From a virus, in IMG/VR virus record IMGVR_UViG_3300007540_000034, positions 1 through 37,747 of that record: a stretch of 37,747 nucleotides of DNA; one strand, written 5' to 3'. The translations under genes and the position numbers were made by a program. Below the pieces are notes generated by a model. That model saw only the letters and a program-made list of their open reading frames with translations, was not told the origin of the DNA and searched no databases. Every line of letters starts with the position of its first letter. Within the stretch, counting starts at the first letter, position 1. This document shows positions 1 to 27,191 of this stretch, piece after piece.

Positions 1-224
1 ACAAAGAAATCAGAACCACTTGGTCCTGCACATATGAAGTGCTGATACGCATCAATGTTAGCGCGTTTCATCCAACCACTCCAAGTCCAAGTCTTACGGT
101 TACCAGCAACAGATGGTGTGCGGTTTAGAAATGCGCTGTCGCCGTCGTTAAACAGTAACGATTGCTCAATGAGGTACGCCGCAGCCGTGGAGCTTACGAT
201 GCCAAGTGGAATGGTGTGGAGCAT
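1..224 (-). CDS. LamG-type tail fibre/appendage protein, N-terminal part (runs off left edge)
   Basis: An open frame starts with ATG at 224 and stays open to base 1, giving 74 codons. The start overlaps the stop of the upstream fibre gene as TAATG, the tight coupling used all along this operon. The product contains the stretch NRKTWTWSGWMKR, the opening strand of the concanavalin/LamG-like domain common in phage tail proteins. Such domains act in virion appendages, probably in receptor or glycan contact. The continuation expected of this domain (IGA...DG...DGAALDATSFGE, then W-P) is found at the other end of the window, in the reading frame entering at 37747. The two pieces are therefore probably one gene cut by the window edges. 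The domain match is from memory of the family; the open frame is seen directly. Confidence 0.8.
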   Translation of the reverse strand, partial: MLHTIPLGIVSSTAAAYLIEQSLLFNDGDSAFLNRTPSVAGNRKTWTWSGWMKRANIDAYQHFICAGPSGSDFF

Positions 225-8335: not shown

Positions 8336-8974
8336 TTATATACCTATTATTCCGGGGGATACGTAGTTAAAGCGAGGGCCAAGGCCAACCCCCGGAGGAG
8401 CCGCTCCAAATGAGTTCGGCACATTCATGCCAAACGTAGAACTCCCACTTCCAAATCCAGTACCTGCTCCAGCGCTTGGGGCTGTTACTGTTGACGCAGC
8501 CGAGGCATATTGAGCAAACCCAGCCCCCATTAAAGAAACAGCGGCCCCAGCAAACGCTGCATTCTTCTGTTGTTTACCTCTCCATGCAGCCATTTCCCCC
8601 ATGTATTCTTGGTTTCTAGCTTGATTCTCTAACTCATATGCATTTAATTCGCCGCCGTAATATTTCATTAAGGCATCAAATTCTATGCTTGCTGCGTTAT
8701 CACCAAGAACTTGCAAAGGAGATCCAGCAATTTCTATTCCACTTTTAGATATTTGAGTACGGTTAGACGCTAATACTGATTTGCCTTTGTCCCGCAATAA
8801 ATCTGCTTCATACGCTGCACGTTTTAATTCGTTCTGTTTTTGCACACGAATGACACTAGCGTTATAATTGTGGATGCCTCTGTTTGCTTTACCAGCTTTT
8901 CCAGCGCCTATCCCTTGAGCGACAGAGCCAACCGCGCTAGCAATCAACATCATTGTTAATGGATCAGCACCCAT
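8336..8974 (-). CDS. Internal virion protein, gp14-like
   Basis: 212 residues. It opens with a hydrophobic, glycine-rich helix (MMLIASAVGSVAQGIGAGKAG), followed by a charged helical middle (YNASVIRVQKQNELKRAAYE, then LRDKGKSVLASNRTQISKSG) with the phrase SGIEIAGSPLQVLGDNA. A second hydrophobic segment lies at about 138-160 (AAVSLMGAGFAQYASAAS), and the tail is Gly/Ser/Pro-rich. This pattern is typical of the gp14-type internal virion proteins (T7 gp14 is about 196 residues), which after ejection sit in the outer membrane. It lies between the tail-tube B gene and the gp15-like gene, in conserved podovirus order. I am fairly confident of the family role; no enzyme activity is expected. Confidence 0.75.
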   Translation of the reverse strand: MGADPLTMMLIASAVGSVAQGIGAGKAGKANRGIHNYNASVIRVQKQNELKRAAYEADLLRDKGKSVLASNRTQISKSGIEIAGSPLQVLGDNAASIEFDALMKYYGGELNAYELENQARNQEYMGEMAAWRGKQQKNAAFAGAAVSLMGAGFAQYASAASTVTAPSAGAGTGFGSGSSTFGMNVPNSFGAAPPGVGLGPRFNYVSPGIIGI

Positions 8975-23455: not shown

Positions 23456-23480
23456 CCCATTGCCCTACCTACCCTACCCC
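23456..23480 (-). other. G-quadruplex motif at the 3' end of the primase-helicase gene
   Basis: On the minus strand GGGG-TA-GGG-TAGGTA-GGG-CAAT-GGG has four runs of at least three G with loops of 2, 6 and 4. It begins within the last codon and stop (GGG TAG) of the primase-helicase gene and runs into the short convergent gap. It could fold in RNA or single-stranded DNA. Confidence 0.6.
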
Positions 23481-25291
23481 AAAGTGTCACTTGGCTCTCT
23501 ATCCCTGTCAAAATCGACGTATCGACGGTTGTCTATTTTGTTGGACGAATATCGATAGGTTTCATTATTGAAGTGAACCTTGCGCTTGCCCTCAAAATCG
23601 CCATTACGTTGTTTTGTCACGTTCAGAGTCACGCCCGCTAAATCGCCAATTTGTGCCAATAAATCTAAATCGCCAGATATTCTGGCAACTGCTTTTTTGT
23701 CCTCCAGATCACGATCACGCCAAACGCCAATTATATTGAAAGCATTTGCGCCAATTTCACTGGTGCCTTTGACTGATTCAGTATCAGGAACATCCCTTGA
23801 ATCGCCAGCCTTTCTGGCATGGGCCACAAGGTGAAGATGAACAGGCCTAGAAACCGCCCAATCCGTTAACCGAAAAATCGCATTGTCTTGCGCCCTGTAG
23901 TCATCAACGCCAACGCCCAGACGCATAAACGAATCAATCACAAACGTATCAATTCCGTATCGTTTTCTGGCATACTCAAAACCGTCTAGTAAAACGTCAA
24001 TTGAGGCGCGTCCCACAAAATTGTACAGCCACAACTTACCGCTCATCCAATCCATACAGGCTCGCAGAAAAGGTTCAGTTGGCACATCAACATTGCCTAA
24101 CTGCTTAACCATGCGCTTGAGAGATTGATGCGGGACCATTTCCAAGCTGGCAAGACAAACCTTGGCGTCTTGGTGCATCATATCAACAATGGCATGGGAT
24201 AAAACCTGAGATTTCCCGGCACCACTGGCCCCCGTCCATAACGTCAATTCGTGCGGGCGAAATTTAAGCTTGTTTCTTAGATCGTCCCACGGGACGGTAT
24301 AGCCCTCTGCCGCCTTGTCAGTTGGTCTGAAAATCTCATTGACTGAATCAAAGAACTCAGACGCTGAAACCAGTTCGTCTGGATCTTCATGACTGGCATG
24401 GGCAAAACACTCATCTATTTCCGCCTTGGGACAGGACGCAACGAGGCATCCGTTGGCGTCTTTTTCTGGCAACTGCACAATTTTGCATCTGTGCCTACCA
24501 AGCCTTTCAACAATTTCACTAGCTGCCGCCTGACCCACTTGGTCAGTGTCCATGCAGATAAATATTGTTTCAAATCGGTCAAGGTTGTGAAATTCATGTT
24601 CAATCCATTGCTGCTTCGCGCCTGTGCCGCCACCAAACGGGACAGACAAAGCAGGATAGCCATATTCATAAAGGGAAAGGGCGTCAATTTCACCCTCACA
24701 TATTGTCACTATTCTATCAGAATCTTGGATGGCTTGCCACCCGAAAAGCACTGGTCTACAGCCTGATGATGTAGGTTTTGGTTTGCCTCCGTCGATGGCT
24801 TCTCTGACTTTGATTAGTGCAGCATCGTTGCCCCAAATAAACGGGAAGAACATATTGTTGCCACATTCACCAACCTTGTACGCGCTGATCGATTTCTCTG
24901 TCAGACCTCTGCCTGTAAGGTATTCAAGAACGGCACCTTTTGGCGCAGAACATTGAGGCTTATCCGGCAATGTGAAGGTCTGTTTTTTCGGTGCCATGGG
25001 TTCATTTCTGGTGACCCCAAGATAATCTGATATATCGTCCAAGGCCTCTACCATTGTCTGGCCCCGCGCTGACTTCCAAAGGTCAATTAGGTCACCGCCT
25101 TCACCACTGGCAAAGTCAGACCAGACGCCTTTCTTATCGCCGGACAAACAAACCTTTAACGACTTACCAGTCTCACCATTAATAGAGCCAACCTCGTACT
25201 GTTTGGCGTTACGTTTTCCGGCAGGTAAAAGTATATCGCACACGGCCTCAACACGGTCATTGAGTCGTGCCTTCAGTTCTGTGATTTCCAT
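23474..25291 (-). CDS. Primase-helicase, T7 gp4 / Twinkle type, lacking zinc-finger ligands
   Basis: 605 residues. The N-terminal part (GKSLKVCLSGDKKGVWSDFA then GEGGDLIDLW, residues 43-72) has the shape of a CHC2-type primase zinc domain but only C18 and C48 of the expected ligands. The polymerase/TOPRIM domain follows with EGEIDALS (199-206), then DTD (248-250). The RecA-like helicase has Walker A GASGAGKS (354-361), Walker B TFVIDS (about 449-454), and HLHLVAHARKAG (about 485-496) for the H3 region. It should unwind the replication fork as a ring; primer synthesis is doubtful without the zinc ligands. Last gene of the replication operon, 3 nt after the initiator gene. Length is normal for gp4-like proteins. 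Confidence 0.88.
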   Translation of the reverse strand: MEITELKARLNDRVEAVCDILLPAGKRNAKQYEVGSINGETGKSLKVCLSGDKKGVWSDFASGEGGDLIDLWKSARGQTMVEALDDISDYLGVTRNEPMAPKKQTFTLPDKPQCSAPKGAVLEYLTGRGLTEKSISAYKVGECGNNMFFPFIWGNDAALIKVREAIDGGKPKPTSSGCRPVLFGWQAIQDSDRIVTICEGEIDALSLYEYGYPALSVPFGGGTGAKQQWIEHEFHNLDRFETIFICMDTDQVGQAAASEIVERLGRHRCKIVQLPEKDANGCLVASCPKAEIDECFAHASHEDPDELVSASEFFDSVNEIFRPTDKAAEGYTVPWDDLRNKLKFRPHELTLWTGASGAGKSQVLSHAIVDMMHQDAKVCLASLEMVPHQSLKRMVKQLGNVDVPTEPFLRACMDWMSGKLWLYNFVGRASIDVLLDGFEYARKRYGIDTFVIDSFMRLGVGVDDYRAQDNAIFRLTDWAVSRPVHLHLVAHARKAGDSRDVPDTESVKGTSEIGANAFNIIGVWRDRDLEDKKAVARISGDLDLLAQIGDLAGVTLNVTKQRNGDFEGKRKVHFNNETYRYSSNKIDNRRYVDFDRDREPSDTLG

Positions 25292-25294
25292 CGT

Positions 25295-26071
25295 TCATCC
25301 CTTTATTTTCGTCATGTTAAACTGTGCCGCAACATCTGGCGTCACTTCTACAACATTTCCATCCCACAAATACTTGGCTTTTGGCTGAGGTTGGTAGTCA
25401 TCCCACATTTCTTCTTTGAGCCAATTCTCTGGACGTTTAATGTACTCTGTCGATGTTGTTTTGTTTTGTCGAGCATATTCCTCAGCGCCCCTGAGCAAGG
25501 TGGCGCAATCAGTCTTACGCATTGCCACCATGTAAGCTTGCTTGGCTTTCTTTTTCTGAAACTGGTTTGGGAATGCTGACCACCAGATCTCAAATGCGTC
25601 AAGATCCCATTCGTGGGTGGTATCTGCCGGTAGGTTGTTTTCTGTTTTATCAACCGTAACATCAATATCGGCAGTATATATTTGTTGATTAGTGGTTTGT
25701 TTAATAGTGGTGTGTTCTGTGTGGGTCTCAGACCCCTCCTCCCCGTGGGTGCTAGACCCCTCCCCCCTGTGGGTCTCAGACCCCTCCCCTCCAAAGTCAT
25801 GCATAACACAATAAAGCTTGGCTCTTTCGGAACCGTCTTGCCGGAATCTGCGGCTGGAAGTAACCCACCCCTTTTGTTCAATTAAACGAAGTCTCTTGTT
25901 AAGATCGTCCCGCCTTACGTTAAGTTGTTCCGCCATCGTTTGCTGGCTTGGAAAACATTCACCATTTTTATCGGCGTAAGAACACAGCAATGCGAGTACT
26001 CGCAACTCTGCGTTGGTAATATCTTTATCAAGGATTGCTAGTGTTGGAACGACGCCAAATTTACTGGCCAT
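25295..26071 (-). CDS. Helix-turn-helix replication initiator, lambda O-like arrangement
   Basis: 258 residues. The N-terminal domain (ITNAELRVLALLCSYADKNG, CFPSQQTMAEQLNVRRDDLN, then RLIEQKGWV) is a winged helix of the replication-initiator type (HTH_36 style). A hydrophilic linker (about 95-150) contains an octapeptide repeated three times (GEGSETHR, GEGSSTHG, EEGSETHT). The C-terminal domain (WDLDAFEIWWSAFPNQFQKK, AKQAYMVAMRK, YIKRPENWLKEEMW) is the usual helicase-loader-like end. The octapeptides are encoded by three 24-bp DNA repeats, as lambda O contains its own iterons. It presumably binds these and recruits the primase-helicase encoded next. A good AGGAG precedes the ATG. Overall similarity to lambda O is architectural, not sequence-level. 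Confidence 0.8.
   Translation of the reverse strand: MASKFGVVPTLAILDKDITNAELRVLALLCSYADKNGECFPSQQTMAEQLNVRRDDLNKRLRLIEQKGWVTSSRRFRQDGSERAKLYCVMHDFGGEGSETHRGEGSSTHGEEGSETHTEHTTIKQTTNQQIYTADIDVTVDKTENNLPADTTHEWDLDAFEIWWSAFPNQFQKKKAKQAYMVAMRKTDCATLLRGAEEYARQNKTTSTEYIKRPENWLKEEMWDDYQPQPKAKYLWDGNVVEVTPDVAAQFNMTKIKG
25721..25792. repeat. Three 24-bp iterons, candidate replication origin
   Basis: Repeat 1 is 25721-25744, repeat 2 is 25745-25768 and repeat 3 is 25769-25792, in perfect 24-bp register. Each starts GTGGGT and contains AGACCCCTCC; repeats 1 and 3 share 19 identical bases and contain the palindrome GGGTCT-C-AGACCC. An AT-rich stretch (25660-25720) adjoins them. Located inside the initiator gene, as in lambda. 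Confidence 0.75.
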
Positions 26072-26076
26072 ATCAA

Positions 26077-26121
26077 CTCTCCTATTATGCTCTCCAAATA
26101 AAGGCGCGACGGGCCGGAGAG
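26077..26121 (-). promoter_or_regulatory. Possible translation switch in the initiator-gene leader
   Basis: On the minus-strand message CTCTCC (26121-26116) can pair with GGAGAG at 26095-26090 or with the GGAGAG that is the ribosome-binding site at 26082-26077. The first pairing leaves the site free and the second hides it. Seen as exact 6-bp complements; the regulatory role is inference. Confidence 0.4.
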
Positions 26122-26256
26122 CGAAGCCGACGATAGGAGCTACCTACCGCTTTTTTCGCCGCACTACTTATATATCAAAAAAAAGAAGCGGGAGCAAAGG
26201 AAAAGGGATAAAACCTTGCTCAACCGCTTCAAGTGGCAAAAGGGAGTAAGCCACAA
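26122..26256. other. Short non-coding stretch between DUF6378 and initiator genes
   Basis: The 135 bp hold no gene. On the minus strand a TATATA box (26175-26170 region) with TTGCTC about 16 bp upstream could be a weak promoter for the initiator gene. GTGGC/GCCAC could form a loose stem near 26233-26254. Neither is strong. Confidence 0.3.
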
Positions 26257-26523
26257 TTAAGATTGTACCTGATCAAGTTCTGAACCGCAAGCGGCGTATC
26301 CAGCGATATCAACCCAATTGTCGTTTTTCTTGCCAGCCTTAACCCTTGCCACTTTCAATAAAATCATCAGTGCCGCTACGTCTCGCTCCCATACATCAAC
26401 GCCTAAATAATCTGACCATAAAGCAGCAACAGTTTTAAAGTTGTCCTCGACATTACCGTATGCTTCTGCCCTGTCGCCACACACGCACTCTATCGCTGTC
26501 TCTAGGCACTCAAGTCTGTTCAT
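26257..26523 (-). CDS. DUF6378 family protein
   Basis: 88 residues. The sequence RLECLETAIECVCGDRAEAY then GNVEDNFKTVAALWSDYLG, DVAALMILLKVARVKAG and DNWVDIAGYAACGSE matches the DUF6378 family, very common in phages. Its pattern is R-x-x-x-YG-x-x-x-x-N-x-x-x-(A/T)-x-LW followed by M-x-x-LK-x-AR and D-N-x-VD-x-AGY. The helix-turn pattern with conserved acidic residues resembles all-alpha NTP pyrophosphatases of the MazG kind, so a nucleotide clean-up role is possible, but that is inference. It overlaps the upstream resolvase-like gene by 14 nt in the replication operon. Confidence 0.82.
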   Translation of the reverse strand: MNRLECLETAIECVCGDRAEAYGNVEDNFKTVAALWSDYLGVDVWERDVAALMILLKVARVKAGKKNDNWVDIAGYAACGSELDQVQS

Positions 26524-26836
26524 TTTTTAATAGCCTTATCCATACTTCATGTGGCACCACGTAGAGCGGTTGCCTTCCGTTCTCCCTTAACACAAGAAAA
26601 TCGTTGTCGGCAAGGTATCCTGTTAGCCAGTCAGGGAATTTCTTTCGTGCTTTAATCTCACCACACAACGGAGCCTTGTCTTTGCCTTGCCAGTATACGT
26701 CAATGTCGTATGACCGTTCTGCACCGAATTGCCCACGGCGGGCGTCATATCTTTCAGCGTGAACGCCAGCTTCCTTGTGGCAGTTGACGATTTCTCGTTC
26801 GACGCGAGCGCCCTTATCTCTGCTCATCTTACCCAT
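26510..26836 (-). CDS. Hjc-like Holliday-junction resolvase / PD-(D/E)XK nuclease
   Basis: 108 residues starting at the ATG at 26836, which has GAGG six bases upstream and overlaps the HNH-gene stop. A longer in-frame version to 26896 lies inside the HNH gene. The archaeal-type Hjc layout is clear: SRDKGARVEREIVNCHKEAG (catalytic E13 or E15), then RRGQFGAERSYDIDVYW (D46), then LCGEIKARKKF (E60-x-K62), and near the end NDFLVLRENGRQPLYVVPHE. The enzyme would cut branched DNA made in replication and recombination, before packaging. Its partners are likely the Cas4-like nuclease and SSB of the opposite operon. The active site is complete. Confidence 0.8.
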   Translation of the reverse strand: MGKMSRDKGARVEREIVNCHKEAGVHAERYDARRGQFGAERSYDIDVYWQGKDKAPLCGEIKARKKFPDWLTGYLADNDFLVLRENGRQPLYVVPHEVWIRLLKNEQT

Positions 26837-27191
26837 TAAGCACCTCGTTTTCAGAGTGCCATCTCTGATGACAACCCCGGCACAACCATCTAACACTTAA
26901 CGGCTTGGCATAATCATCGTGATGTCCATCAAGGCGTGCTTTTGTTCCGCATTCTGAGCAATTTTCTAGAGCCACCATGGCACCCGATCTGATTGCATTT
27001 TTTACTGCGTGATGCGCTCTTCTACGAACGGGGTTCTCTTTAGCGTAAGCGCGAAGTTTATGGGTTCTTGTTTTATCGTTTTCACTTTTGCAGTGCTTGC
27101 AATACCGCTGAAGGCCGTCGGGTCTGCGGCTTTCTTTGTGAAATTCGTCGGCTGGCTTAATTACGTTACATTTTGAACACTGCTTTTCCAT
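26829..27191 (-). CDS. HNH endonuclease-like zinc protein
   Basis: 120 residues from ATG at 27191 (TGATG overlap with the upstream gene). The N-terminal part has a zinc pair CSKC then YCKHC with KPADEFHKESRRPDGLQRYC between them. The C-terminal part is CSECGTKARLDGHHDDYAKP followed by VRWLCRGCHQRWHSE. The DGHH motif plus CRGCH is the beta-beta-alpha metal (HNH) nuclease core, with two CxxC knuckles. Such genes are common as stand-alone phage nucleases or homing-type enzymes. Here it sits in the replication operon and overlaps both neighbours, so it looks domesticated rather than inserted. Confidence 0.83.
   Translation of the reverse strand: MEKQCSKCNVIKPADEFHKESRRPDGLQRYCKHCKSENDKTRTHKLRAYAKENPVRRRAHHAVKNAIRSGAMVALENCSECGTKARLDGHHDDYAKPLSVRWLCRGCHQRWHSENEVLNG

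Follow-up and report, generated by a model that had tools for sequence, protein, structure and literature searches.

A probable replication origin of palindromic 24-bp iterons inside the initiator gene of an uncultivated phage

Near the middle of a helix-turn-helix gene in an uncultivated phage lie three tandem repeats of 24 bp, raising the question of whether these are the iterons of a replication origin embedded in its own initiator gene, or whether they serve the protein, transcription, or copy control instead. The repeats are part of IMG/VR record IMGVR_UViG_3300007540_000034, of which positions 1 to 37,747 (the window) are considered. A first-pass annotation of this DNA had called them a candidate lambda-type origin, and we consider here the gene and its protein, the DNA adjoining the repeats, and the equivalent regions of both close relatives and a broad sample of phage initiator genes.

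The initiator gene and its neighborhood

The gene encodes a 258-residue protein in which a winged helix, a linker, and a C-terminal domain follow one another in that order (Table 1). Residues 18-70 match Pfam family HTH_36 (PF13730; E 3e-13, 49.8 bits vs. a cut-off of 25), the protein matches phrog_270, "replication initiation protein" (E 1e-32), and its C-terminal half matches phrog_9327, "primosomal protein." An AF2 model, which was built from a shallow alignment and reaches fair confidence only in the winged helix and the 30 C-terminal residues, gives a pLDDT of about 75 for the winged helix and below 50 for the linker. Fold matches found with Foldseek include the DnaD N-domain (2v79), a Rep-DNA complex (5kbj), and the N-domains of other initiators (4pql and 4pt7), with E values of 2e-3 to 8e-3, and RepA initiators are also among the fold matches of the winged helix. 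A Pfam scan at E up to 1 finds no RepA_N domain (PF06970) in the initiator, even though solved Rep initiators are among its best fold matches. We note that the part of the gene encoding the winged helix contains a perfect 14-bp palindrome, TGCGAGTACTCGCA, at 25991-26004, which may be a chance occurrence.

The first-pass annotation credited the phage with an initiator and a helicase, but with no polymerase of its own. The domain matches bear out the initiator, and a scan of large ORFs revealed no polymerase domain; the helicase, however, is not a plain one, as the neighboring gene, which starts 3 bp past the initiator stop codon, encodes a single protein combining a Toprim primase with a DnaB-like helicase. 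Similarly, the description "lambda-type" is apt for the layout and the presumed mechanism, but not for the protein family. Phage_rep_O (PF04492), which lambda O itself contains with an E value of 6e-36, is absent from the initiator in the Pfam scan, BLASTP of the initiator against lambda O gives no meaningful alignment, and there is no lambda P-type helicase-loader gene next to the initiator gene, where the primase-helicase gene is found instead. Membership of the lambda O protein family was rejected on these three grounds.

Table 1. Features of the initiator locus and of the leader element in relatives. Positions are those of the window unless a contig or residues are named.
Feature	Position	Strand	Remarks
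Toprim primase + DnaB-like helicase (fused)	23474-25291	minus	Next gene downstream of the initiator gene; Pfam and PHROG
Replication initiator gene, 258 aa	25295-26071	minus	777 bases; Pfam, PHROG, AF2 model, Foldseek
Initiator, winged helix	residues ~10-88		
Initiator, linker	residues 89-153		Predicted disordered
Initiator, C-terminal helical domain			phrog_270/primosomal type
Putative DNA unwinding element	25664-25716		Weakest 45 bp plus 15-bp repeat array
Candidate iteron 3	25721-25744	minus	Furthest downstream in gene sense, adjoins AT-rich stretch; perfect GGGTCTCAGACCC at 25723-25735
Candidate iteron 2	25745-25768	minus	Degenerate center GGGTGCTAGACCC at 25747-25759, 2 mismatches to dyad
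Candidate iteron 1	25769-25792	minus	Perfect GGGTCTCAGACCC at 25771-25783
Exchangeable cassette (winged helix, iterons, weak stretch)	25665-26105	minus	441 bp; unrelated 440 bp in L006
Leader element, ~65 nt, predicted structured	26102-26166	minus	Immediately precedes the initiator gene; forms the upstream boundary of the exchangeable cassette
Leader element in relatives	L006 3088-3153; L003 2102-2168; L094 3138-3201 (minus)		

The 24-bp repeats and their dyad

The repeats form three tandem copies in exact 24-bp register at 25721-25792, corresponding to bases 280-351 of the 777-base gene, and thus occupy the part encoding the linker between the DNA-binding and C-terminal domains, as had been annotated. 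The array has a TRF score of 108, whereas the highest score from 200 shuffled versions of the window (first-order Markov) is 64. The units share a 13-bp dyad, GGGTCTCAGACCC, which is perfect in the outer two, in agreement with the two palindromes reported at first pass, and has two mismatches in the middle one. A contiguous-arm dyad test against shuffles of the repeat unit gives a p of 0.011. Both the 24-bp repeats and the dyad are far above chance.

A rival explanation for such a structure is that it is a protein feature, a Gly/Glu/Ser/Thr linker having grown by in-frame duplication with no role for the DNA. The period of 24 is a multiple of 3 and could arise from a peptide repeat alone, which counts against the origin reading; the linker is also predicted to be disordered, and one copy differs by a whole codon. 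The encoded octapeptides (GGEGSETH, RGEGSSTH, and GEEGSETH) are three in number, although their triplication is less exact than first described. However, a dyad with 6-bp arms arises in only 0.125% of synonymous versions of the repeat unit drawn with the phage's own codon usage (a probability of 0.00125 given the peptide), and the palindrome is therefore not forced by the peptide; moreover, it requires codons that are rare in this phage (ACC, 9%; GGG, 17%).

The exact palindrome was rejected as a diagnostic motif, as many genomes contain tandem GGGTCTNAGACCC with no winged-helix gene in its vicinity; it is present in 2 viral and 39 genome stretches, and such a gene is close by only in L011 and, weakly, in L075. 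L011 is an otherwise unrelated viral contig in which GGGTCTCAGACCC palindromes with a degenerate middle site lie in an intergenic region (563-619) upstream of a weakly HTH_36-like gene. The palindrome alone is unspecific, and L011 is weak support. Metagenome-assembled genomes of Promineifilum, Roseiflexus, Synergistaceae, and Bacteroidetes (L043-L080) have pairs or triplets of GGGTCTNAGACCC at several places per genome, and these are apparently dispersed palindromic repeats.

A weak duplex adjoins the repeats

Directly downstream of the repeats in the gene sense is a stretch of low duplex stability. By nearest-neighbor calculation, no 45-bp segment of the initiator gene is weaker than 25664-25708, which ranks at the 99.1 percentile of the contig. 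The AT-rich stretch annotated earlier at 25660-25720 does adjoin the repeats and contains this weakest segment, but is less exceptional by composition, its 67% A+T (the window has 55%) placing it at only the 94th percentile. Overlapping it, at 25681-25716, is a 15-bp direct repeat, TTTGTTGAATAGTGG, present in 2.4 copies (TRF) and absent from the earlier annotation. The weakest segment and the 15-bp array together make up the putative DNA unwinding element (Table 1). The window has no DnaA box of sequence TTATCCACA, and two degenerate matches are located at 8838 and 33584.

Repeat arrays in other phage initiator genes

Initiators were gathered from phages of Lactococcus, Arthrobacter, Gordonia, Mycobacterium, Pseudomonas, Escherichia, Bacillus, Moorella, Propionibacterium, and others, giving a non-redundant set of 26 phage initiator genes; repeats were counted at a TRF score of 50 or more, with lambda O and TP901-1 rep as controls. 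We found that tandem repeats cover 25.9% of bases 251-450, the linker-coding region, with an array there in 18 of the 26 genes; the cover is 1.2% for bases 1-250, 1.0% for the remainder of the genes, and 0.14% for flanking phage DNA, where 1 of 392 200-bp windows has such repeats. The weakest 45-bp duplex adjoins the array in 12 of 17 array-bearing genes, including lambda O and TP901-1 rep. Across the family, perfect dyads show no significant enrichment (Fisher p 0.06, contiguous-arm test), and a wider dyad test was negative when using 10-pair arms, which suit short dyads poorly. The combination of a linker array and an adjoining weak duplex is a usable general signature for helix-turn-helix-type phage initiators.

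The periods of these arrays bear directly on the peptide explanation. Of 14 initiator arrays, 8 have a period that cannot be divided by 3 (14, 17, 22, and 23 bp, with many at 22 or 23), and one of these 8, in L003, is an AT-rich array; the copies are then read in different frames, so that the repetition is a property of the DNA, with no peptide constraint. That arrays with such periods lie at the same place in relatives, that the weak stretch is consistently next after the array, and that the pSK41 linker residues encoded by its origin are dispensable (PMC5703833) all argue against repeats that are solely a protein feature, which we regard as unlikely for the window.

Two further genes were noted in these comparisons. 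Next to a related primase gene, Vibrio phage 1.242.O encodes a protein whose gene has the order seen in the window, with a 23-bp array and then an AT-rich 9-bp one. An Azospirillum plasmid protein has the winged helix nearest to that of the window among those found (36% identity), and its 21-22-bp arrays are upstream of the gene and not inside it; in the Azospirillum megaplasmid AbAZ39_p3 (L088), two such arrays precede the HTH_36 gene, at 556-640 and 1025-1127, looking like an iteron-type plasmid origin.

Exchange of the winged helix and repeats as a block

The closest relative, L006 (the same contig as L002), has 83% DNA identity to the window over 24281-25664 and 74% over 26106-26839, and the two have in common the upstream genes, the C-terminal half of the initiator, and the primase-helicase. 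Between these regions, the window and L006 have unrelated blocks of almost equal length (Table 1), with that of L006 encoding a different winged helix and containing a palindromic 15-bp array (TACTGAAATTCAGGA, 2.5 copies, with dyad CTGAAATTCAG) and then its own weakest stretch. A further variant with a 15-bp array is found in L003, L005, L022, and L023. The first-pass annotation had reasoned that relatives keeping the linker but losing the repeats would speak against an origin; instead, every near relative has an array in the linker, of different sequence and accompanied by a different winged helix. Searches turned up no relative sharing the winged helix of the window and no close one in viral contigs; with the winged helix alone as query, they returned phage and plasmid matches at 19-39% identity.

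The winged helix, repeats, and weak stretch are thus naturally exchanged as a single block. Because the block is contiguous, the repeats could hitch-hike with the helix, and co-transfer alone is no proof of recognition. The window and L006 constitute a natural experiment, in which the same C-terminal half and helicase are combined with what appear to be two distinct origin specificities.

At its upstream junction, the block meets the leader element, which has the pattern GCGGCGAAAAAAGC-hairpin-GGCTT..GGCCCGYCGC, with GCGGCGAAAAAAGC invariant. L003-type phages and L006 retain this element, as does L094, a phage that is otherwise different and in which it also precedes an initiator-like gene, and the initiator genes behind it have different N termini. 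The fold is a predicted three-way junction with both-sided changes in 3 of 17 consensus pairs; single-sequence folding energies are unexceptional (z of -0.6 to -1.7), and there is no Rfam match. The element is possibly an unknown structured RNA or a regulatory hairpin, and with four distinct sequences, which are too few, we make no claim of an RNA family. Elsewhere in L006 (932-995, minus strand), we note a type II hammerhead ribozyme-like match (36.3 bits vs. a gathering score of 37, E 1.8e-4) that has no counterpart in the corresponding part of the window. A broader idea is that in this phage group the origin is a plug-in cassette of ~440 bp, swapped whole between the conserved leader, as a structured RNA or a DNA hairpin, and the C-terminal domain, which is likewise conserved, and that the leader takes part in initiation or regulates synthesis of the initiator; we find this doubtful.

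Alternative roles and a model for initiation

If not a protein feature, the repeats could be operators, with the winged-helix protein or some other regulator acting through them to repress the operon, and no origin involved. Winged helices of this kind resemble MarR and DnaD folds, and the similar palindrome triplet of L011, with its degenerate middle copy, is positioned upstream of a weakly HTH_36-like gene. In the window, however, the array is inside the gene, 280 bp past the start codon, with no promoter-like site found beside it in the gene direction, and an adjoining weak duplex is unexpected for an operator. Furthermore, for TP901-1, SPP1, and pSK41 it has been proven that the arrays within initiator genes of this kind are origins, and we consider an operator role very unlikely.

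GC skew, the check proposed at first pass, was rejected for mapping the origin; it follows the coding strand in every block and has no sign change at 25.7 kb, within a minus-strand block. Because the skew tracks gene orientation, it is evidence neither for nor against an origin at this position. A role of initiator-bound repeats in incompatibility or copy control, with the real origin elsewhere in the phage, would be compatible with this neutral skew and has a precedent in the second, distant origin that SPP1 has beside its intragenic one (PMC6316719), but is the least credible explanation, as the repeats adjoin the gene's weakest duplex, the usual mark of an opening site, and the window has no other array of comparable TRF score.

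We conclude that the 24-bp repeats are very probably iterons, belonging to a replication origin that lies within the gene of its own initiator, a reading supported by a layout that matches lambda ori, SPP1 oriL, TP901-1 and Tuc2009, and pSK41, and that recurs in the broad sample of phage initiators. In the mechanism we envisage, the N-terminal winged helix would bind each of the 24-bp units, where a dimer probably occupies the GGGTCT-C-AGACCC dyad, and two good sites with one degenerate site would give a nucleoprotein complex over about 70 bp. This complex would strain and then open the adjoining weak stretch at 25664-25716. The C-terminal domain, carried on the flexible linker incidentally encoded by the iterons, may then bring in the primase-helicase of the next gene, with a host polymerase presumably taking over the remaining synthesis.

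Comparison with known systems

For an uncultivated phage, the sequence by itself is enough to locate a probable origin. The principle is long known from lambda, SPP1, TP901-1, and pSK41/pPR9 and will not surprise a specialist; what is new is its occurrence in an only distantly related phage.

In lambda, the origin is in the middle of the O gene (PMC5043065, PMC7466680), and, as in the window, dyad-symmetric iterons midway through the initiator gene are followed by an AT-rich opening region (PMC5043065, PMC7466680). The systems differ in that the lambda DNA-binding domain is of the Phage_rep_O family, that there are four iterons of 18-19 bp rather than three of 24 bp, and that lambda has the P loader gene where the window has the Toprim primase-helicase gene. 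SPP1 oriL is within gene 38 and consists of initiator-bound direct repeats and an AT-rich element (PMC6316719), an arrangement that, by published description, is like that of the window; SPP1 differs in having separate loader (gp39) and helicase (gp40) genes, and a second origin, oriR. For the lactococcal phages TP901-1 and Tuc2009, direct repeats in their own rep genes have been shown to be the origin (PMC8965321). The TP901-1 Rep (ORF13) and BK5-T ORF49 have an HTH_36 or near-cut-off HTH_36 N terminus as in the window, and the replisome organizers of TP901-1, Tuc2009, and BK5-T likewise have AT-rich repeats directly downstream of the array, but in Gram-positive hosts and with different repeats; TP901-1 also has a DnaB_2 C-terminal domain.

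The chimeric rep genes of staphylococcal plasmids are similar in a further respect. By published description, genes of the pPR9 type have HTH_36 (pfam13730) and central origin repeats, together with a C terminus of the pSK41 type, and in pPR9, a block of about 500 bp comprising an HTH_36 N terminus and origin has replaced the RepA_N domain and origin of pSK41 (PMC5703833); the resulting replicon is functional and compatible with pSK41 (PMC5703833). The exchange between the window and L006 appears to parallel that between pPR9 and pSK41, as in both the C-terminal domain is kept while the helix and origin block are exchanged (PMC5703833), although pPR9 and pSK41 are plasmids rather than phages, with another C-terminal domain (DnaG-binding in pSK41). 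With its N-terminal winged helix, its iterons in the linker, and its adjoining weak stretch, the window gene fits this group of initiators with intragenic iteron origins.
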